A stretch of DNA of 38,917 nt from Paludibacteraceae bacterium (GTDB lineage: Bacteria; Bacteroidota; Bacteroidia; Bacteroidales; Paludibacteraceae). The position numbers and the translations under genes were made by a program. The notes below the pieces were generated by a model that was given only the letters and a program-made list of their open reading frames with translations, was not told the origin of the DNA and ran no database searches. This document shows, one piece after another, positions 1-38,917 of the stretch; position 1 is the stretch's first letter; every line of letters starts with the position of its first letter. The stretch spans positions 1-38,917 of the forward strand of contig JAEELX010000027.1 in the NCBI GenBank assembly GCA_016282955.1. Reading direction: 5' to 3'.

Positions 1-519
1 AATAATTATTCTTGGAGTGAATGGGGTGACAATAAAATCGGCGATTATGCTGCTAAGACGTGGCGTACACCGAAGAAAGACGAGTGGGTTTATTTGTTTA
101 ACACACGTAAGGTTAATGGTGCTGACGGTTACTCGTACGTTCGCTTGAAAACAGGTAGTAGTTCAAGTGATACCGTTACGGGTTGTTTGATTTATCCCGA
201 TAACTTTACGTGGGCAAAAGCGGGTGTAACTGCTATTTCAACGGGTGCAAGTGCTGGTGTTCAAGTGGTAGAGAATGCTACTTGGAAAAAATTGGAGAAA
301 GCCGGTTGTGCGTTCTTGCCAGGTTGTAGTTATCGTGATGGCACTACGGTCAGTGCGAACTACTATGGTCGCAACGTCTTCTATTGGTCTGCTACTGATT
401 ATGATACTTACAGCGCGTATCTCGCGAACTTCAATTTCGGAGGTCGTAGCATCCTTCCAGCGAACTACGCCAATCGCTATGGCGGCTATGCGGTACGTTT
501 AGTTCGCGAAGTAAAATAG
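1..519 (+). CDS. C-terminal part of a secreted paralogous-domain protein (5' end lies outside the window)
   Basis: Frame 1 is open from base 1 (NNYSWSEWGDNKIGDYAAKTWRTPKKDEWVYLFNTRKVNG...YWSATDYDTY...GGYAVRLVREVK*). Same motif order as the three complete proteins at 20.4-27.3 kb. Confidence 0.85.
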   Translation, partial: NNYSWSEWGDNKIGDYAAKTWRTPKKDEWVYLFNTRKVNGADGYSYVRLKTGSSSSDTVTGCLIYPDNFTWAKAGVTAISTGASAGVQVVENATWKKLEKAGCAFLPGCSYRDGTTVSANYYGRNVFYWSATDYDTYSAYLANFNFGGRSILPANYANRYGGYAVRLVREVK

Positions 520-2681: not shown

Positions 2682-3173
2682 CTATGCCTCCATTATTTTT
2701 TGATACGCCAACCGCTCATCGCCCGAAAGCAGATGGATGATTCCACAATACGTAAAACCGTTTATACAAAGGTTATGTTGCATAATCCGGTTGTCGCGGT
2801 GCGTATCGATGCGAATGTTCTTATCCGCCGAAAAACTAAACGCCAACATGCTCCGAAAAACCCCTCGCACGTGCGGATAACTGCCCAAACGGTGCACCAC
2901 ATGATACGGCAACGTATCGTCCAACCACGCACCGTCATATATCTTGCTGTATGCGGGTTCGGGACTCGGCATCAGGGCAAAATACGCTCCAATTTCCCCG
3001 TCCTTTTCCAACACATACCCGATTTTTTGCTCTATATCTGCCAAAATGTCCTGTTCCGCAGGATAGCCGTTTGCCCATTGGGTGAGGTTCCCGTCAGCAC
3101 GCATGATTCCTCGTGCGGCATCCATCACCCGCAGAATCGAAGATACATCATATTTTTGGGCTAACCGTATCAT
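2682..3173 (-). CDS. GNAT-family N-acetyltransferase
   Basis: 163 aa; IRLAQKYDVSSILRVMDAARGIM...GYVLEKDGEIGAYFAL...RIDTHRDNRIMQHNLCINGFTYCGIIHL is GNAT-like. 4-bp overlap with the upstream transporter. Confidence 0.8.
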   Translation of the reverse strand: MIRLAQKYDVSSILRVMDAARGIMRADGNLTQWANGYPAEQDILADIEQKIGYVLEKDGEIGAYFALMPSPEPAYSKIYDGAWLDDTLPYHVVHRLGSYPHVRGVFRSMLAFSFSADKNIRIDTHRDNRIMQHNLCINGFTYCGIIHLLSGDERLAYQKIMEA

Positions 3174-4384
3174 TTTGTGTCAAAAATATAACCTGTCGTT
3201 TTTTCCATCACCACGGCACAAGACGCATCGCCTGTTATGGACATCACCGTGCGTCCCATATCCACGAGCCTATCTATGCCTGCTGCCACTGCTACGCACT
3301 CCACAGGAATACCTGCCGAAGCAAACACCATCGCCATCAACGCCAACGCACCACCCGGCACACCCGGCGTTCCAATCGAAGCAATCGTAGCCGAAATGGC
3401 AATCGCAATATATTGGTTGAGCGTCAAATCCAAACCCAAACAATTCGTAAAGAACACGGCTGCAACCGACAAATAAATCGCCACACCATCCATGTTTATC
3501 GTGGCTCCCAATGGCACCACAAACTCCGCAATATCCTTCCGAACGCCCAAACTCCGTGCTCCTTCCATCGTGTACGGAATCGTTGCCACAGACGAGTCAG
3601 ACGAAAAAGCGAACATCATCGCGGGCGTCATCTGCTTCAAAAACGTGAACGGATTCGTCTTGCCCAAAATCGCAACAAGCGGCGTGTACACAATAATTAT
3701 ATGCAACAAAAACACACCGTAACTCAACAGTATCAGAGCCGCATACGAACCCAATATATTCGGACCATTGATAACCACCACAGGCGTCAGCAAACAGAAC
3801 ACACCAAACGGCGAAACCGCCATAATGTATTCCAAAATCTTCATCATCACATCATTCAGGCACGCAACGAGTCGTTTGGCAGGCTCGCCCTCTTGCCCAA
3901 CTGAAATAATCGCAACCCCAAAAAACAACGCAATCACAATCACTTGCATCATCGTCATGTTCATGATGGGTTTCAGGATATTCGCGGGGAAGAAGTTAAT
4001 GATTTGGTCCATCAACGTAAAATCGTACAACTCATACGAATCCAATTCCATTATATCGATGCTGATTGACGGCAAAAAGCCCTTGCACAGAGTCGCTACC
4101 ACTAACGCCACCACGGTCGCCACAATCGTTGTACACATAAAAAACAGCACCGAACGCAACCCTAATTGCCCAATCTTGGTCACATCATTTATAGAGAATA
4201 CCGCCGACATAATCGAAAAGAGCACCAACGGCACCACAATAAATTTCAGCAAATTCAGGAAAATCGTCCCCCAAGGTTTGATGTAACCATTAACAAAGTC
4301 AGGAAAGTGTTGCAAAGCAAGACCAGCGAAAACCGCTAAAATCAAAGCCATGAAAATCTGAGATGTTAATGATAATTTTTGCAT
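3170..4384 (-). CDS. Dicarboxylate/amino acid:cation symporter, paralogue of 1400-2620
   Basis: 404 aa; co-linear and highly similar to the 1400..2620 product, with the same signature motifs. Confidence 0.93.
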   Translation of the reverse strand: MQKLSLTSQIFMALILAVFAGLALQHFPDFVNGYIKPWGTIFLNLLKFIVVPLVLFSIMSAVFSINDVTKIGQLGLRSVLFFMCTTIVATVVALVVATLCKGFLPSISIDIMELDSYELYDFTLMDQIINFFPANILKPIMNMTMMQVIVIALFFGVAIISVGQEGEPAKRLVACLNDVMMKILEYIMAVSPFGVFCLLTPVVVINGPNILGSYAALILLSYGVFLLHIIIVYTPLVAILGKTNPFTFLKQMTPAMMFAFSSDSSVATIPYTMEGARSLGVRKDIAEFVVPLGATINMDGVAIYLSVAAVFFTNCLGLDLTLNQYIAIAISATIASIGTPGVPGGALALMAMVFASAGIPVECVAVAAGIDRLVDMGRTVMSITGDASCAVVMEKTTGYIFDTK

Positions 4385-6650: not shown

Positions 6651-7265
6651 TTAAATTTCTACGGCCATTTTGGTCAGTGTTGCCTTGATGGTTTCGTCCG
6701 AAGGTGGGTTAGCAAAAAGATAGTCCACTTGTTCGGTATAGTCAACGTCACCGAAATAGCATAGTTGTGAACGGAATAGTTTTTCAGAATACAAGTCGCC
6801 AAAAATCGCATTTGCTCTTGCGGAAATTTGTCCTATAGAAAAATGCTCCGTGAGGAGAAAAAACAAATCTACATAATCTTTCCACTTGGAGCGGCGACCT
6901 AATGCGTATGCTTTCATAGCCGCTAAGTCAATCAAAGCAGGTACACGAAACGTATTTTCAAACTTTTCATTTACCTTTATCTCAAATGGATATTGAAAAA
7001 AAGTGAGCTTTACATCGTTGATAATCAAATTCATCTGTTCTTCTACCCGTCGGGTTACTCTGTACGGAAATCCTGATACGTTCAATTTATCAAGATTCTT
7101 CTTGTGATTTAAAGGGGAACGCTTGAACATATCAAAATCAATCGAACGCCTATGCCCAAGATACAACGCAACAGCCGTACCACCAACAAGGTAGTATTCT
7201 CGTTTGAATTTTTCCATAACGGACAATAATTCAACTTGCTTTTTGCTTAAAACCTCCTTATACAT
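6651..7265 (-). CDS. AbiEii/AbiGii-like nucleotidyltransferase
   Basis: 204 aa; YLVGGTAVALYLGHRRSIDFDMF is the characteristic GG...GHR.S.D.D nucleotidyltransferase signature of AbiEii-like proteins. Confidence 0.85.
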   Translation of the reverse strand: MYKEVLSKKQVELLSVMEKFKREYYLVGGTAVALYLGHRRSIDFDMFKRSPLNHKKNLDKLNVSGFPYRVTRRVEEQMNLIINDVKLTFFQYPFEIKVNEKFENTFRVPALIDLAAMKAYALGRRSKWKDYVDLFFLLTEHFSIGQISARANAIFGDLYSEKLFRSQLCYFGDVDYTEQVDYLFANPPSDETIKATLTKMAVEI

Positions 7266-20182: not shown

Positions 20183-20212
20183 CTAAAAAAACTTAATTTT
20201 AATTAAACTATG

Positions 20213-20284
20213 TAGTCCATAGCAGAGTCGAACTGCTCTTTACAGAATGAAAATCTGTCGTCCTAGCCGATAGACGAATGGACC
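20213..20284 (-). tRNA. tRNA-Glu (anticodon UUC)
   Basis: GGTCCAT...GTCTATCGGCTAGGAC...ACAGA-TTTTCAT-TCTGT...AGCAG-TTCGACT-CTGCT...ATGGACT-A; full cloverleaf, CCA not encoded. Confidence 0.95.
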
Positions 20285-20383: not shown

Positions 20384-22381
20384 TTATAAGTTCCGCACAA
20401 GACGTACTGCATATCCCATTCTACGGTCAGACGTTTGCGTAAAATTAAGCGTCTTGCTTTTAACATTGCCATCCAGACGATATGCTTTGTTGTTATTGCC
20501 ATTCACTGGAGTCGAAGTCCAATAGTTTATGTAGATACCATAGTTTTTCTCATTTATTCCAGTCGCACCACCGCTTTCTCCACGGTTCGCACAGCCAGGC
20601 AAGAAAGCACAACCCACTTTTTCCAAAGCATCCCAAGTGGTTTTAGAAACCCAATCAACACCATTCGCACCCACAGCAATGGCTTTAACACCTGCTTTTT
20701 CCCACGTGAAATCATCGGGATAAAAGATTATACCCGTAACCGTATCCGTAGGATTACTACTGTATTGTAAGTGAACGAACGAATAGCCAGCCTCTCCATT
20801 GACTTTCCGCGTGTTAACCAGATAATCCCAATCATCCTTCGAAAGCGTACGCCACGTATTCATAGGGTAGCGACCAATCTGATTTCCACCCCATTCGCTC
20901 CACGAATAGTTCGAATTGGTGGTGTTGGTGTAATATGGTTGTCTTGCTCCCGTTAGACCACTCGTTCCCCAGCCAAAGAGGTCTATCCAACCCGCGAAGG
21001 AAGAGGATACTTTACTATTGTCAGCCATACAGCGATGAAACTGTTGAGGTGCAAAACGCCACGTGGCAGGATTTGCCCTATATTGTAAGTTACCTGGCGA
21101 GAATTGCACCTTCTGTGTAGCACTAATTGAGAAGGCAGCAGGCGAAGGATCACGTAAGGTATAATCTTGCACGAGACGCACATTGATAAAATCCATTCGG
21201 TTGGTAGCCTCAACCAATACTGCTTTATTGCGTACATCAAAACGGACATATTCTGCTTTGGCTCCATCCGATGCTGTAGAAGACCAATAGAAGCCCATCT
21301 GACCCAAACCACCGTCGTTGTAATTCAATTGATTTTGTTCATTGGGATAGGATTGATAGGCATTAGGCAAGAACACACAGCCAGCTTCTTCCAAAGCATC
21401 CCATGTGGCACGGTCAATCTCCGAAACAGGATAATTGGCACCAAAAGGCATGGTAGCCACCCCCACCTCCGCAAAACTAAAGTCATCGGGATAAATCAAC
21501 ACACCCGACACCGTATCCGTTGTATTCTTACCATACTTCAACCGCACATACGTAAAAGCACTATCCTTGCCATCAATCACACGTTTGATCAAGATATACT
21601 CCCATTCTTCTATCGTCAATGTACGCCAAATACCTGGCCGATACATCGTAGCATCCTTATCAAAAAGGCTCACCACCTTATTATTTTCATCATACACACA
21701 ATCGTAATACTCGCGAATAGGGTTGCGATAGCCCCAATCAAAATAACGGTTGGTGCCCGAATTGGTATCTATGTCGTTGCTCGTTGCACCCGCACCGCGA
21801 CCTACAACAAACGAAGGACCGTAACCGTAGGCGTTAAATTCACTACCTAAATTCTCACCGCTTAACTCATAAGGATAAAAGAAGAGTGTATTTGCATCGC
21901 CTACTGCTCTACCGTTTCCACTCGTTCCCCACGCAAACATATCAATCCAACCTTTATACGTTTTAGAAATCAATGTGTTATTACAAGGCACGCCTTTAAT
22001 CTCCTTGAAACCCGAGGGCGTGTTATCCTTCGTAGAATAGTCAATACTGTCGTAAAAGACGGTTGTTCCATTGTCATTGACATCGTTACCACTTGTCTGC
22101 AAGCCTTCGGGAGCATACACGCTCTTACCTTTCCCTACACGGTCAAACTGCCGCAAGGCAAAACGCCACTCGTTACGTGCCGGACAGTACTGCAAGTTAC
22201 CCGAAGAGAAAATAACGCTTGCACCACGGTTGTTGATACTGAAAGGATGCACCACAGGCGTATCCACAACGAACTTCACAGCCGACTGATAATGGCGATT
22301 GCAACCATCGGTTTGTGCAGCGTGAACAGCCGTTAAAAATACGCTTAGTCCCAATAATACTAAAAATAAACCTTTTTTCAT
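20384..22381 (-). CDS. Secreted two-domain paralogous protein (P1)
   Basis: 665 aa; signal peptide; two copies of the GNLQY...WRF...GWID.F.WGTSG...WRT...EW.Y...DTVSGVLIYPDDFSF...GCVFLP...YWSST...VRLV domain. Confidence 0.85.
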   Translation of the reverse strand: MKKGLFLVLLGLSVFLTAVHAAQTDGCNRHYQSAVKFVVDTPVVHPFSINNRGASVIFSSGNLQYCPARNEWRFALRQFDRVGKGKSVYAPEGLQTSGNDVNDNGTTVFYDSIDYSTKDNTPSGFKEIKGVPCNNTLISKTYKGWIDMFAWGTSGNGRAVGDANTLFFYPYELSGENLGSEFNAYGYGPSFVVGRGAGATSNDIDTNSGTNRYFDWGYRNPIREYYDCVYDENNKVVSLFDKDATMYRPGIWRTLTIEEWEYILIKRVIDGKDSAFTYVRLKYGKNTTDTVSGVLIYPDDFSFAEVGVATMPFGANYPVSEIDRATWDALEEAGCVFLPNAYQSYPNEQNQLNYNDGGLGQMGFYWSSTASDGAKAEYVRFDVRNKAVLVEATNRMDFINVRLVQDYTLRDPSPAAFSISATQKVQFSPGNLQYRANPATWRFAPQQFHRCMADNSKVSSSFAGWIDLFGWGTSGLTGARQPYYTNTTNSNYSWSEWGGNQIGRYPMNTWRTLSKDDWDYLVNTRKVNGEAGYSFVHLQYSSNPTDTVTGIIFYPDDFTWEKAGVKAIAVGANGVDWVSKTTWDALEKVGCAFLPGCANRGESGGATGINEKNYGIYINYWTSTPVNGNNNKAYRLDGNVKSKTLNFTQTSDRRMGYAVRLVRNL

Positions 22382-22444
22382 ATACTTTACGATGTTAAAA
22401 ATTCAAAAACACGTTTCTCACTCCTTCAATCACCCCATACCTTG

Positions 22445-22475
22445 CAAAGATACAATAAAAATATGTTTTTACAAA
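22445..22475 (-). promoter_or_regulatory. Promoter upstream of P1
   Basis: Minus-strand TATCTTTG (22445-22452), 19-bp spacer, TTTG (22472-22475); the surrounding block is conserved in P2 and P3. Confidence 0.7.
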
Positions 22476-22500
22476 AAAAAATAGAAGGAGGAAAGTGGGA

Positions 22501-22627
22501 AGATGAAAGGTGAAAGGTGAAAGGTGAAAGGTGGAAGATGGAAGATGGAAGATGGAAGGTGAAAGATGAAAAGTGAAAAATGAAATGTAAAAATGAAAGG
22601 TGAAAGATGAAAGATGAAAGATGAAAA
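22501..22627. repeat. Degenerate heptanucleotide tandem array (AGRTGRA)n
   Basis: About 18 heptads read directly (agatgaa aggtgaa aggtgaa aggtgaa aggtgga agatgga agatgga agatgga aggtgaa agatgaa ...), with one register break near 22585. Confidence 0.9.
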
Positions 22628-22710
22628 GGGGAATTGGTGAATTGTACATTGTTAATTGTACATTGTTGTTCCTTTCCCTTTTCAATTCTCAATTTTCAAT
22701 TTTCAATTTA

Positions 22711-22743
22711 AAAAGACAGCCCCTCACCGAGATGAGAAGGCTG
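22711..22743 (-). terminator. Terminator after P2
   Basis: Minus strand CAGCCTTCTCA-TCTCGG-TGAGGGGCTG-TCTTTTT. Confidence 0.8.
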
Positions 22744-22786
22744 ACATATTCCCTAAAACGTACCTGTCAAGCAGGCAAGAACTGAA

Positions 22787-24793
22787 TTATAAGTTTTGAA
22801 TAAGCCTTACAGGGAAGCCGTAATGACGGTAACTATTCGTAAACTCAATGGTCTTACCCGTGATATTGAAGTACACGTTATCCGCCTTTTCGGTACCATT
22901 TTCAGTTGCCGACCAATAGTATACGTATTGGCTATAGAAATCTGGATTGATAGTCGTTCCCATACGGCTTGCACAACCAGGCAAGAACACGCAACCAGCA
23001 TTAGATAAGGCATTCCAAGTCGCTGTTTGCACTACTTGAAGACCTGCCGTAGCACCCACCTGTAAAGGCGTTGTTATACCTGCATCAGCCCACTTAAAGT
23101 TATCAGGATAAATCAGCACACCCGTTGCCGTATCCGCATCAGCGGGTCCGTATTTGAGCGTAACATACGAATAGCCTGCACCGCCATTCACTTGACGTGT
23201 GCTAAGCAAATAAGTCCATTCTTCGCTCGTAGGTGTACGCCATGAACCACCGATCGCAGTGCCCCAATCGCTCCACGAATAATCGGTAGAAGTTGCGGAG
23301 GTAGAATACGGTTTTACATCATCCTCTTTTACACCACTCGCACCCCAGCCAAAGAGGTCAATCCAACCTTCGTAGTTAGCCGCTGCCGAAGCGTTGTTTG
23401 CCATACATCTATCGTATGGATTAGTAGCAAAACGCCAGGTATTCGTAGAGGCTTGATATTGTATGTTGCTCGAAGCAATTTTCACTTTTTGTGTAGCACT
23501 AACCGAGAAAGCAGGAGGCTCACTTACAGTATAATCTTGCACGAGACGCACGGGGTAAGCGAGATAACGTGCGTTATTGTTATTAGTCGCAAGCCCACGT
23601 CCAAGGATATTAAACCATACATTATTTGCTTTTGCTCCATCATACGCACTTGCCGACCAATAGGCACCCCCCAGCCCATTAACATCTGCATTAATACTTG
23701 GTACACCATTGGATAAAGTACGTTGGGTCGCACTCGGCAAGAATACCACGCCTGCTTCTTCCAAAGCCTCAAAAGTAGAAGCGTCAATTGACGAGATAGC
23801 ATAATTTGCTCCAAAAGGAAGCATGGCTACACCTGTCTCTGAAAAACTGAAGTCATCAGGATAAATTAAAATACCCGTAATCGTATCCGAGTTATTCTTG
23901 CCGTACTGCAAACGCACATACGTAAAAGCACTATCCTTACCTTCCACTTCACGCGTGATTAAGATATACGTCCATTCATCAGTGGACAATGTACGCCAGA
24001 TACCCGGACGGTACATCGTACTATCGCCTGCCGACACCAACAAAGCATTATTGCCATCGTACACGCAATCAAAAAATTCACGAATCGTGTTGCGATAACC
24101 CCAATCAAAACAACGGTTGGTACCCGACTTGGAATCAATATCATTGCTTGTTGCACCCGCACCATGACCTTCACCAAACGAAGGACCATAGCCGTATGTG
24201 TTAGGATTAAAGCCTAAGTCGGTATTGTTCAATTCATAGGGATAGAAGAACTGAGTATACTCATCGCCTACGCGTCTGCCGTGACCGCTCGTTGCCCAAG
24301 GGAACAAGTCAATCCAACCAGCATAGTTTTTCGAAACATATAAATTATTACAAGGCACGCCTTTTATCATTTTGAAACCCGTTGGCGAGTTATTGTCTGG
24401 TGTAGAATAATCGATACTGTCGTAGAAGACGGTAGTAACATTATCGTTGACACCGATCGCCGTCAGATTTGCGGGAGCATAAGCACCATAAACACTCTTA
24501 CCATTCCCTACACGGTCAAACTGACGTAAGGCAAAACGCCATTCGCTACGAGCAGGACAGTACTGCAAGTTACCTTTAGAGAAAATGACGCTTGCACCCT
24601 TAGCATTGATACTAAATGGATGCACAACAGGCGTATCCACAATAAATTTGATGGCTGACTCGTAATAACGGTCGCAACCATTCTTAGTATCGGCATTAAC
24701 CGTACCAAACAGTGCGACTAACCCCAATAATAAAGATAAAATTCTTTTCATATTTTTCATAGTATTTTGATAAAATTCAACGTAATTTTTCAC
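22787..24793 (-). CDS. Secreted two-domain paralogous protein (P2)
   Basis: 668 aa; same architecture as P1. An internal start at MKNMKRILSLLL or MKRILSLLL may be the real one. Confidence 0.85.
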   Translation of the reverse strand: MKNYVEFYQNTMKNMKRILSLLLGLVALFGTVNADTKNGCDRYYESAIKFIVDTPVVHPFSINAKGASVIFSKGNLQYCPARSEWRFALRQFDRVGNGKSVYGAYAPANLTAIGVNDNVTTVFYDSIDYSTPDNNSPTGFKMIKGVPCNNLYVSKNYAGWIDLFPWATSGHGRRVGDEYTQFFYPYELNNTDLGFNPNTYGYGPSFGEGHGAGATSNDIDSKSGTNRCFDWGYRNTIREFFDCVYDGNNALLVSAGDSTMYRPGIWRTLSTDEWTYILITREVEGKDSAFTYVRLQYGKNNSDTITGILIYPDDFSFSETGVAMLPFGANYAISSIDASTFEALEEAGVVFLPSATQRTLSNGVPSINADVNGLGGAYWSASAYDGAKANNVWFNILGRGLATNNNNARYLAYPVRLVQDYTVSEPPAFSVSATQKVKIASSNIQYQASTNTWRFATNPYDRCMANNASAAANYEGWIDLFGWGASGVKEDDVKPYSTSATSTDYSWSDWGTAIGGSWRTPTSEEWTYLLSTRQVNGGAGYSYVTLKYGPADADTATGVLIYPDNFKWADAGITTPLQVGATAGLQVVQTATWNALSNAGCVFLPGCASRMGTTINPDFYSQYVYYWSATENGTEKADNVYFNITGKTIEFTNSYRHYGFPVRLIQNL

Positions 24794-24811
24794 AATTCAC
24801 CATAAACTCTG

Positions 24812-24843
24812 CAAAGATAGTATAAAAAAAATGTTTTTACAAA
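24812..24843 (-). promoter_or_regulatory. Promoter upstream of P2
   Basis: Minus-strand TATCTTTG (24812-24819), 20-bp spacer, TTTG (24840-24843). Confidence 0.7.
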
Positions 24844-24930
24844 AAAAATAAAGTGAAAAACAAAAGCCAAGTCCAAACGAATAAATATAGACCAGTCACC
24901 TTTCAATTTTCAGTTTTCAACTTTCAATTT

Positions 24931-24967
24931 AAAAAATTCGTCTCCATCGCAAAAGGACAGAGACGAA
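24931..24967 (-). terminator. Terminator after P3
   Basis: Minus strand CGTCTC...GAGACG-AATTTTTT. Confidence 0.75.
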
Positions 24968-25006
24968 AATCAAACAATAAAGCCTACCAAAGCAGGCAAA
25001 AACATA

Positions 25007-27331
25007 TTATAAATCTCTGACTAATCGAACAGGCAAGCCAGCATGGCGATTGTCGATAGTTACATCGGCAGTTTTATCTACGGTATTGAACGCCATACGA
25101 TACGCCTTATCACTATTACCAGGGTCAGAAGTCCAATAAGATATACCTATACCATAAACAACAGCCGCTTCGTTTTTCATACTCGTACTTCCACCAATAC
25201 GATAACTACATCCTGGTAAGAACGCACAACCCACTTTTTCCAACGCTTGCCACGTAGTTAAACTTATCTTTTGAACGCCCGAAGAAGCCCCCACACTAAG
25301 TGCTTCTACACCCGCTTTTTCCCACGTGAAATCATCGGGATAAATAAGTACACCTGTAACCGTATCCGCTTCCGTTTCACTATCACTTGTTTGTATGCGA
25401 ACGAACGAAAAACCATAGTCACCACCAGCAATCTTACGATTTAACAAATAGTTGCATTCCTCTTTCGTTGGTGTACGCCACGTATTTTTAGGATATGTGC
25501 TGATAACATTCTGTCCCCACTCACTCCACGAGTAATTTGTGGCAGTGGTATTGCTGTAATACGGTTGTCGTGCACTTCCGACTCCACTCGTTCCCCAACC
25601 AAGGAGGTCTATCCAACCATCGTAGTCGTTTGCGATATTCGCGTTGTCTGCCATACAGCGATGATACTGTTGGGGAGCAAAACGCCACGTCTTCGTAGAA
25701 CCTTGATACTGCAAGTTACCTGGAGAGAAGGCTACTTTTTGTGTAGCACTAACCGAGAACGAAGGAGGAGGAGTGGGCGTATGATCTTGCACGAGACGCA
25801 CACTGTTAAAATCCTTTCGGTTGGTAGCCTCAACCAATACTGATTTATTGCGTACATCAAAACGGGCATATTCTGCTTTGGCTCCATCCGATGCTGTAGA
25901 TGACCAATAGAAGCCCATCTGACCCAAACCACCGTCATTCAAATTCATGTGATTATCATTTGCTGCAACGGGATAGGCTTGATAAGCAGTAGGCAAGAAC
26001 ACCACGCCTACCTCTTCCAAAGCACTCCATGTAGCAGCGTCAATCTCTGATACACCATACGTTGCCCCAAACGGAAGCGATGCCACACCAGCCTCCGAAA
26101 AACTAAAGTCATCAGGATAAATCAACACACCTGACACCGTATCCGTTGTATTCTTGCCATACTTCAACCGCACATACGAAAAAGCACTATCTTCACCACC
26201 CACCAATCGCTCCGTTAAGAGATACTTCCATTCGTCAGCCGTCAAGGTACGCCAAACACCCCGACGATACATCGTACCAACGGGTGCTTGCACTACTAAC
26301 GCTTTATTTTCATCATATACTAAATTATAATACTCACGAATCACATTGCGATAGCCCCAATCAAAAAATCGATTGGTACCCGATAGCACATCAATATCAT
26401 TGCTGGTAGCACCAGGACCATGACCTGCATCAAACGAAGGACCATAACCGAACTTATTAGCCTCATGACCTAAATCGACACCATTCAAATCGTATGGATT
26501 AAAGAAGACAGCAAGTGAGTCTTGTGCTTTGCGACCTTGCCCACTCGTTCCCCAAGCAAACATATCAACCCAACCGCCATATTTCTTCGAAATCAATGTG
26601 TTATTGCAAGGCACACCTTTAATTTCTTTGAAACCTGATGCGGTCGAATTATCCTTCGTAGAATAGTCGATACTATCGTAAAAGACGGTCGTTCCATTAT
26701 CGTTGACATTAGTTCCATCTGTCTTCAGACCTTCGGGAGCATAGACGCTCTTGCCTTTCCCTACACGGTCGAATTGTCGCAAGGCAAAACGCCACTCATC
26801 GCGAGCTGGACAGTACTGCAAGTTACCCGTAGAGAACACAACGCTCCCACCTAGTTTATTGATGGTGAAGGGATGCACTGTGGGAGTATCTACAATGAAC
26901 TTCACAGCCGACTGATAATGACGCTCGCAACCAGGTGCACCTGCCGAAGCTTTAGGATGATCAAGCGAACAAGTAATCTTAAAGGAAGTGATCCCCCCCC
27001 CGACACTACCTGAAGTATTTAAAACTGTAAGCGATACGTTTTTGTTTAATACATCCTTTACTAAGGGATATACATTCGCATCAATTAAGACGTTGAATCT
27101 TTTATCATCATCTGTGGAACCCAAATATAAAGTATATACCGTACTTCCTTCCTTAGGTGGTTCTATAATAGCAACTGTACCATAAAACTTATACCCTATA
27201 ACATTTTGGGAACTGTTTAAAAATGTCTTCATCTGAGCATACGTGTACATCGTTCCCGCATCGTTTTGGGCATTGATATGCACGACCAGACCTAACAACA
27301 TGGCTATAAAAAGTAATTTCTTCATATTCAA
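25007..27331 (-). CDS. Secreted paralogous protein with extra N-terminal domain (P3)
   Basis: 774 aa; about 130-aa unique N-terminal part (TYAQMKTFLNSSQNVIGYKFYGTVAIIEPPKEGSTVYTLYLGSTDDDKRFNVLIDANV...) and then the same two-domain body as P1 and P2. Confidence 0.85.
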   Translation of the reverse strand: MNMKKLLFIAMLLGLVVHINAQNDAGTMYTYAQMKTFLNSSQNVIGYKFYGTVAIIEPPKEGSTVYTLYLGSTDDDKRFNVLIDANVYPLVKDVLNKNVSLTVLNTSGSVGGGITSFKITCSLDHPKASAGAPGCERHYQSAVKFIVDTPTVHPFTINKLGGSVVFSTGNLQYCPARDEWRFALRQFDRVGKGKSVYAPEGLKTDGTNVNDNGTTVFYDSIDYSTKDNSTASGFKEIKGVPCNNTLISKKYGGWVDMFAWGTSGQGRKAQDSLAVFFNPYDLNGVDLGHEANKFGYGPSFDAGHGPGATSNDIDVLSGTNRFFDWGYRNVIREYYNLVYDENKALVVQAPVGTMYRRGVWRTLTADEWKYLLTERLVGGEDSAFSYVRLKYGKNTTDTVSGVLIYPDDFSFSEAGVASLPFGATYGVSEIDAATWSALEEVGVVFLPTAYQAYPVAANDNHMNLNDGGLGQMGFYWSSTASDGAKAEYARFDVRNKSVLVEATNRKDFNSVRLVQDHTPTPPPSFSVSATQKVAFSPGNLQYQGSTKTWRFAPQQYHRCMADNANIANDYDGWIDLLGWGTSGVGSARQPYYSNTTATNYSWSEWGQNVISTYPKNTWRTPTKEECNYLLNRKIAGGDYGFSFVRIQTSDSETEADTVTGVLIYPDDFTWEKAGVEALSVGASSGVQKISLTTWQALEKVGCAFLPGCSYRIGGSTSMKNEAAVVYGIGISYWTSDPGNSDKAYRMAFNTVDKTADVTIDNRHAGLPVRLVRDL
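26993..27001 (-). repeat. G9 homopolymer (C9 on + strand) inside the P3 coding sequence
   Basis: gtgatCCCCCCCCCgacac; codons 111-113 (Gly-Gly-Gly) of the 774-aa ORF. Confidence 0.95.
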
Positions 27332-36876: not shown

Positions 36877-38917
36877 TTACCGCACAAGCACAATATAACT
36901 TCTATAACGTATATTGGCTTTGTCTTTTGGTACCAAATAAATCAAATACGCACTCTGCACTGGAGGCAAACTAACCCGCGTAGCACCGTGTTTGTCGCTG
37001 TATGCTGCAAAATCACCGAAACGAATCAACTTACCAGGCATATCATAAACCCAATAACTGCCGTCCAAATTACTTTGGATTTGAATATCTGGATTCTCAG
37101 GCGTAACCATAGTTGGATGCACGTAAATATGGGGTTCATTCAGTAAATTCTTATCTTCCACCGAAACCACCTTAACAGGGCAAGTGAAAGTAGCATGACC
37201 GTCGTCTGAACGCGTCAACAAAACTTGATATTTGGATTCCAAAGCCAATTTTGCAGGCACGTAATAAATGTCTTTTACGGCACCATAAATCGGCTTTTCA
37301 TTTTCATACCACTGATAAGCACTAAACTCATAACCGCCATTGTAACCCGAATTTAACACCGCTAAAACGTCATTCCAATGCTGGCCAACAATCTTACTCG
37401 GGTAGAAAACATGCAACGAATCGGTAAAATTATGCTGCACGCCACACGTATCGGTAATGTTTAGCAGAACTTCGTAACTCCAAGGACGAATATATGGCTC
37501 TATTTGCGGGATATTAATAGGAAGAAGCACATAGGTGTCGAAGATGTTGTCGGGTTCAAATTGCCCTTCGATGTTGACAAATCCGTCCGCAAGTGCCCTT
37601 GCATCTAATTGCACCGAATACGTATTAGGTTGGCCTGCAACGTATTGGAACATGTAATTGAAACTGACGCTATCGGCACAAACATCTTTGGGCGAAACCA
37701 ATTCCAATTTTGTCAGTGGCACACAGGTGTGGCAATCCTTTGCTGTGATATTCAAGGTATAAATGACGCTGTCGCAACCACTATAATGCTTGAACGGGAC
37801 CGCTTGCGTATTGCTATAATCGCCTTCCACAAGTATGCTCTGTGGCTTTTTCGCGTCAGTCGTGTACCAGTTGTAGCGTTCGCCAAGGCAAACCCTCACG
37901 TTCGTAGACTTGGTCTTCGTTTCCAAACGGGTCAAGTGTAAGATGCAATAGATACTATCTTTGCCATTTTTCTTCCTAGGAATAGTGTAGCGATAAGTGC
38001 CTTTTTCAGTGGTTTGGGTGATGTCTTTGAGTTTCTGCCCTTCGCGTTTCCATTCGTAGGCGTTTTCGTTGCAAATCGTGTCGTAAAATGGCTCGTCATA
38101 GGGTTCGATGGAGGTAACCGTCAGTTGCAAAATCGAGATGATACTATCGCAACCGTACATGCTCCGCACCGTGTCGCGATGAGTGCCTTGCGTTTCTTTG
38201 TATAGCGTTTTGTCATCGGTTATCTTCCACTTGTACGTTTCGCCACGCTCTATTGTAGCGGAAATCGGACGCACGTCTGCGACTATGTCCGAGAAAATCA
38301 AATGCAAGTTCATAATCGCACTATCGCAACCCTGCATATCCTGCAAGGTCTCCTTGTGGTCGCCAGCAGTCGCAAGTTCGCGAGTAAGGTTCTTCTTTTT
38401 GTCGTAAGTCCACGTATAAGGCCCGCTACCACAAATCGCCACCGTATCGAAATCTGGCGTTGGGTCGGCATCCGATTGTTTCAGGTGCAACTTCACAATC
38501 ACACTATCGCAGCCTTGCATATCCTGCAACGTCTCTTCATAGTCGCCAAAGGCATCAAGGTCACGAGTAAGGTTCTTCTTTTTGTCGTAAGTCCACGTGT
38601 AAGGGAACTGACAAACCGAAAGGGTCTCAGTTTCAGTGGTTGGGTTAACATCCGATTGTTTCAAGTGCAACTTCACAATCACACTATCGCAACCCTGCAT
38701 ATCCTGTAAGGTCTCCTCATAGTCGCCAAAGGCATCAAGGTCACGAGTAAGGTTTTTCTTTTTGTCGTAAGTCCACGTGTAGGGGAACTGACAGACAGAG
38801 AGGGTCTCAGTTTCGGTGGTTGGATTGACATCCGATTGTTTCAAGTTCAACTTCACAATCACACTATCGCAGCCTTTCATATCCTTCAAAGTCTCTTCGT
38901 AGTCACCAAAGGCATCG
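36877..38917 (-). CDS. C-terminal part of a large secreted repeat protein with T9SS-like C-terminal domain (5' end beyond the window)
   Basis: Open to the right edge. 60-aa repeats (GCDSVIVKLHLKQSDVNPTTETETLSVCQFPYTWTYDKKKNLTRDLDAFGDYEETLQDMQ). C-terminal IYVHPTMVTPENPDIQIQSNLDGSYWVYDMPGKLIRFGDF...SAYLIYLV...YIVLVR resembles a Por/T9SS sorting tail. Confidence 0.8.
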   Translation of the reverse strand, partial: DAFGDYEETLKDMKGCDSVIVKLNLKQSDVNPTTETETLSVCQFPYTWTYDKKKNLTRDLDAFGDYEETLQDMQGCDSVIVKLHLKQSDVNPTTETETLSVCQFPYTWTYDKKKNLTRDLDAFGDYEETLQDMQGCDSVIVKLHLKQSDADPTPDFDTVAICGSGPYTWTYDKKKNLTRELATAGDHKETLQDMQGCDSAIMNLHLIFSDIVADVRPISATIERGETYKWKITDDKTLYKETQGTHRDTVRSMYGCDSIISILQLTVTSIEPYDEPFYDTICNENAYEWKREGQKLKDITQTTEKGTYRYTIPRKKNGKDSIYCILHLTRLETKTKSTNVRVCLGERYNWYTTDAKKPQSILVEGDYSNTQAVPFKHYSGCDSVIYTLNITAKDCHTCVPLTKLELVSPKDVCADSVSFNYMFQYVAGQPNTYSVQLDARALADGFVNIEGQFEPDNIFDTYVLLPINIPQIEPYIRPWSYEVLLNITDTCGVQHNFTDSLHVFYPSKIVGQHWNDVLAVLNSGYNGGYEFSAYQWYENEKPIYGAVKDIYYVPAKLALESKYQVLLTRSDDGHATFTCPVKVVSVEDKNLLNEPHIYVHPTMVTPENPDIQIQSNLDGSYWVYDMPGKLIRFGDFAAYSDKHGATRVSLPPVQSAYLIYLVPKDKANIRYRSYIVLVR
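38340..38917 (-). repeat. 180-bp in-frame tandem repeats
   Basis: Near-identical blocks recur at 180-bp spacing (e.g. 'gtctcttcatagtcgccaaaggcatcaagg' near 38530, 38710 and 38890). Confidence 0.9.

Follow-up and report, generated by a model that had tools for sequence, protein, structure and literature searches.

The window, meaning the whole stretch of DNA analysed here, is a complete contig (C51) of 38,917 bp from the MAG (G000) of a gut-type Bacteroidales species; the MAG has 1.53 Mb in 137 contigs and is estimated to be 90.8% complete. Three intact genes on the same strand, designated P1, P2 and P3, are flanked by a tRNA-Glu gene (20212-20284) and a family-2 glycosyltransferase gene. Each encodes a protein with two copies of one domain, A being the long form (~360 aa) and B the short one (~250 aa); P3 has, in addition, an N-terminal module of ~100 aa. 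The features of the locus are as follows.

1..519, + strand: fourth family member, truncated at the contig edge, with 52% identity to domain B and its variable segment at 382-504
20384..22381, - strand: P1, open frame, 665 aa, with a signal peptide and two copies of the domain
20387..21139, - strand: P1 domain B (AlphaFold2 model, pTM 0.85)
20396..20524, - strand: P1 domain B variable segment
21164..22249, - strand: P1 domain A, long form
21170..21289, - strand: P1 domain A variable segment (YWS-VRLV), its silent sites almost the same as in P3 and on contig C60
22787..24793, - strand: P2, open frame, 668 aa from GTG, two domain copies
22790..23515, - strand: P2 domain B
22799..22918, - strand: P2 domain B variable segment
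23534..24619, - strand: P2 domain A
23540..23662, - strand: P2 domain A variable segment, close to that of the gene truncated at C60:1-1220 (Ks 0.12)
25007..27331, - strand: P3, open frame, 774 aa, extra N-terminal module and two domain copies
25010..25765, - strand: P3 domain B
25019..25138, - strand: P3 domain B variable segment
25784..26869, - strand: P3 domain A
25790..25909, - strand: P3 domain A variable segment, common to P1 and C60

A preliminary description of this DNA had recognized consecutive same-strand secreted paralogues with two domain copies each, and the open frames of P1-P3 do bear the motifs that it quoted. The truncated fourth member that it placed at the left edge is indeed cut there and resembles domain B, but lies on the opposite strand and thus outside the same-strand array. 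Signal-peptide-like starts were judged by eye on all three proteins; in P2 an internal ATG suits the signal peptide better than the GTG. Neither a lipobox nor a C-terminal sorting domain could be recognized in P1-P3, and since lipid-attachment or sorting signals are not obvious, a periplasmic location is possible. One other family member (C135) has a lipoprotein signal, again judged by eye. Domain B is 48-62% identical between paralogues. The ~100-aa module is N-terminal in P3 and in the C88 and C84 genes (L040; L043) and in the C59 gene (L042:7681-8766) is embedded within domain A, as if it were mobile between paralogues, the likeness of the P3 module to the others being judged by eye.

Several other features were observed in the window. 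A heptamer tandem repeat (AAGATGA, 18.3 copies, 22500-22626) is found 119 bp upstream of P1, directly upstream of a TAnnTTTG-like -7 element (TATCTTTG), and is possibly a phase-variation tract; shorter heptamer repeats occur near several other family genes. Two similar same-strand genes (1400-2620 and 3170-4384) are sodium:dicarboxylate symporter-like, with a Pfam SDF match for the first, and an AbiEii-type nucleotidyltransferase toxin domain is encoded at 6651-7265. At 36877-38916 a gene cut by the right contig edge encodes a protein of ~60-aa repeats (180-bp tandem repeat) that has no Pfam match and whose C-terminus, by eye, is like a type IX sorting domain.

As judged from sequence comparison, the domain of P1-P3 is a divergent relative of the FISUMP/DUF1566 domain (PF09603/PF07603). 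P1-P3 match the Fib_succ_major and Lcl_C profiles only under the curated cut-offs, the best FISUMP scores being 25.2 bits against a cut-off of 33.9 (Pfam PF09603) and 35.3 against 41.65 (NCBIfam TIGR02145). The C-terminal half aligns with three canonical FISUMP copies of locus L082 (hhalign probability 97.3%, E 1.9e-11), in keeping with the secreted Bacteroidales 'paralogous' domain of the preliminary description. P1-P3 have in common with FISUMP, the 'Fibrobacter succinogenes major paralogous domain' (PF09603/TIGR02145), the motif order WRT..EW, FLP, YWS, VRLV; they differ from it in their sub-cut-off scores and in an N-terminal half of their own (GNLQY, WRFA, GWIDLFGWGTSG). Proteomics of the F. 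succinogenes cell envelope has detected one FISUMP protein (PMC4619616). The 'FGE-like' label first given to the domain is not supported and an FGE-sulfatase identity was rejected, the PF03781 profile matching elsewhere in G000 and nowhere in P1-P3.

The domain B of P1 was modeled by AlphaFold2 with a pLDDT of 81.7 (the full-length P1 model, from an alignment of four sequences, reached a pTM of 0.22). A Foldseek search of the domain B model against the PDB returned no match at E<=0.001 and no lectin, and a sequence search of the PDB found no solved relative. The best fold match in a viral library was a phage protein annotated 'Fibrobacter succinogenes major paralogous domain' (probability 0.80, E 0.013). 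DUF1566 is described as a C-type-lectin fold at the family level (PMC6642488, PMC4159848). The 'lectin' of the preliminary description may therefore be retained on the strength of that literature (PMC6642488), but it drew no support from the PDB comparison of an otherwise confident domain model.

A profile built from the copies identified ~22 genes or gene fragments of the family, spread over 16 contigs of G000. Roughly 12 of these, including both genes on contig C60, end at contig edges, so some fragments may be the two ends of one gene. Family members were present in 57 of 60 sampled congeners, with copy number varying widely, from one to 35 matches in the genomes that have the family. Among congeners the closest match to P1 has 43% identity, and for P3 a search of 177 congeners gave no relative at E<=1e-60, indicating that P1-P3 belong to a species-specific expansion; the sample has one genome per species, and the species of the window is represented by a single fragmented MAG whose contigs are broken at the family. 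Named relatives are Bacteroidales MAGs, mostly from ruminants, two of them labeled Paludibacteraceae; in one, BACON domains precede the same domain. No relative was found in the viral contigs and phage records searched, nor did a single-sequence scan of the genome contigs collection yield a match.

Hypervariability of the YWS-VRLV segment between conserved flanks, as first described, is borne out by comparison of the copies. Over 210 within-genome copy pairs, which are not independent, the nonsynonymous difference is 0.31 in the N-terminal part, 0.39 in the middle part and 0.49 in the YWS-VRLV segment. The segment exceeds the middle part in 180 of the 210 pairs in G000 and, in the congeners G050 and G048, in 297 of 300 and 110 of 120, the pairs again not being independent. 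The two example segments quoted in the preliminary description, however, were taken from different paralogues; the domain A segment is almost identical in P1 and P3, and this near-identity is the main clue to what follows.

In some congeners the same segment is the variable repeat of a diversity-generating retroelement (DGR), which rewrites its target by means of a mutagenic reverse transcriptase (RT). At least six of the 60 congeners have a template repeat and an RT nearby, and 227 of 251 mismatches to the template, pooled over ten template/variable pairs, fall at template adenines. In G050 a cassette on contig C45 comprises, on one strand, a target gene with the family domain, a 190-aa open frame, the template and a 377-aa RT. 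There 18 of 19 substitutions between template and target are at template A, and in the variable segment alone the pair has 84% nucleotide identity, with a silent difference of 0.05 and a nonsynonymous difference of 0.19. The family profile matches this target at E 9e-53. Further cases on the family domain were found in G057, G038, G008, G056, G025 and G018; the profile recognizes the target in G050, G057, G038, G056 and G018, and the template in G025 and G008. The fraction of template adenines changed in congener DGRs is 0.40-0.62, and RT (RVT_1) profile matches occur in 17 of the 60 congeners. The 190-aa frame of G050 (L141 C45:5487-4918), which lies between target and template and has no Pfam match, is a possible accessory protein. 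In G018 (L178, contig C81) one template serves two targets ~8 kb apart on opposite strands. Separate from the FISUMP-type DGRs, congener DGRs with RVNRGGSW...GFRV variable repeats were seen at L170 (G057:C40) and L174 (G008:C48); from the motif we take these repeats to be FGE-type.

The most variable columns in G000 are those coded AAY (Asn) in congener templates (Spearman rho 0.65, P 5e-8), with an entropy of 3.03 bits at template-AAY columns against 1.93 at other columns (Mann-Whitney P 3e-6), an agreement partly expected from a shared fold. A third-base pyrimidine, sought as a DGR trace, is in mild and indecisive excess in G000 variable segments (606/983, compared with 1072/2030 in the middle part). 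The 'diversified binding surface' of the preliminary description is upheld as to diversification, congener DGRs rewriting this very segment, while binding is what we infer.

Within G000 the variable segment of domain A is shared between otherwise diverged genes. Among P1, P3 and one of the C60 genes (C60b) its Ks is 0.04-0.14, whereas neighboring segments have Ks mostly of 0.3-1.9. The P1/P3 segment has one silent difference in 43 same-residue codons, against 0.31 per codon outside, an excess of silent identity with a hypergeometric P of 9e-6 and a run-length permutation P of 0.001. The corresponding values for P1/C60b (P 1e-4) and P3/C60b (P 6e-4) come from the hypergeometric test only; its window was picked after the pattern had been seen, and the run-length permutation was significant only for P1/P3. 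P2 carries another version of the segment, which matches that of the truncated gene C60a (C60:1-1220) with a Ks of 0.12, compared with >1 just downstream, divergence resuming right after VRLVQD. Inside this segment the changes that separate P2 from C60a are 11 nonsynonymous ones and none that is synonymous, a bias that is DGR-like and hints at selection for change or a past DGR. The exchanged tracts in G000 thus consist of one trio (P1, P3, C60b) and one pair (P2, C60a). No homogenisation of the segment between family genes was seen in G048 and G050, the sole such pair in G050 consisting of a DGR template with its target. In the C103 gene, both copies of the domain (L041:247-398 and 1135-1286) contain a common 152-bp tract of 98% identity and are diverged elsewhere, another sign of segment copying.

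Collapsed repeats or chimeric MAG contigs could in principle produce identical tracts, and the many members at contig edges, both C60 genes among them, would suit such an assembly artefact. It is nevertheless very improbable, in that P1 and P3 are both intact, are separated by 4 kb on a single contig of 38.9 kb and differ at six places in the tract; the P1/P3 result is therefore independent of contig edges. Equally, P1-P3 might be ordinary paralogous adhesins in which the segment varies only as a surface loop under loose constraint, the shared tract being the product of chance or recent duplication. Variability of the segment extends to the wider family, and fold constraint alone can yield coincidence of variable columns. 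We regard this as unlikely, however, given the sharp borders of the tract (Ks 0.04 versus mostly 0.3-1.9), which lie inside diverged genes and so argue against whole-gene duplication, and given that congeners maintain dedicated machinery for varying these residues.

Active DGR mutagenesis in G000 itself would require an RT and a template, and neither was detected in the 91% of the genome assembled. The RVT_1 profile found no RT, a congener DGR RT used as query gave nothing at E<=10, and no free fragment of the variable segment was present as a template repeat; the one template candidate, on contig C42, was rejected because it is the 3' terminus of a gene lying at a contig edge. With 9% of the genome missing and the assembly broken at the family, the RT and template might be unassembled, or reside on another replicon, and the near-identical segments would then be traces of retrohoming. 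The action of congener DGRs on the same domain and the wholly nonsynonymous P2/C60a differences lend this account some weight. No adenine-specific mismatch signature was found, however, between the closest copies in G000. Both copies keep 82-92% of A sites, against 37% expected for independent DGR retrohoming and 49% in a true two-target congener DGR used as a control. Moreover, silent sites are saturated between most copies, although rewriting from one template should make copies match. An active but unseen DGR thus appears to us a rather poor prospect. Exchange between paralogues is favored by the near-identical silent sites within diverged flanks and by the retained adenines, and is the simplest reading of the two together.

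P1-P3 are probably, in our assessment, members of a species-specific expansion of secreted recognition proteins whose variable segment is diversified by DGRs in congeners and passed between paralogues by gene-conversion-type exchange in the species of the window. The divergent FISUMP/DUF1566-type domain would present the YWS-VRLV residues as a diversifiable recognition surface in contact with ligand. In congeners a DGR rewrites these residues at template adenines; here the copies would vary by duplication and ordinary substitution, and paralogues would pass the segment to one another in short stretches of ~40 codons, gene conversion being the simplest route. Ligand binding and surface exposure of P1-P3 are presumed in this proposal, as is recombination, rather than a lost or unassembled DGR, as the current source of diversity. 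More tentatively, and with considerable doubt, it may be suggested that the lineage lost or never had a congener-type DGR and that its ~20 paralogues trade the variable segment by gene conversion, so that within one genus two engines would diversify the same residues of a single domain family.

DUF1566 and Fib_succ_major domains are already published as DGR targets (PMC4159848; PMC6642488), and intragenic recombination of DGR target modules was suggested earlier (PMC8144416). P1-P3 have the domain superfamily and a C-terminal variable segment in common with these variable proteins (PMC4159848; PMC6642488), and the position of the segment and its variable columns agree with the variable repeats of congeners, which possess complete DGRs of this type. 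They differ in that G000 has no detected RT, template or adenine signature between copies, and in that each protein has two such segments, the one in domain A being internal. FGE-sulfatase-type DGRs also occur in congeners, and P1-P3 are set apart from their targets by having no PF03781 match. A literature search, run without most subscription journals, found no paper on RT-free expansions of DGR-type targets that exchange the variable segment. DGR target proteins have mostly been studied in genomes that contain the retroelement. In a genus with both DGR species and an RT-free recombining expansion, it could be asked if one route can stand in for the other, and such a genus would offer a natural setting in which to compare what is recognized by the variable surface. 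In antigenic-variation families that operate by gene conversion, such as pilin-type silent cassette systems, a short segment is exchanged and the flanks remain constant. The copies of the P1-P3 family differ from silent cassettes in being full genes, and switching could be proposed here only by analogy; what they have in common with such families is the exchange of a short segment between paralogues with constant flanks.
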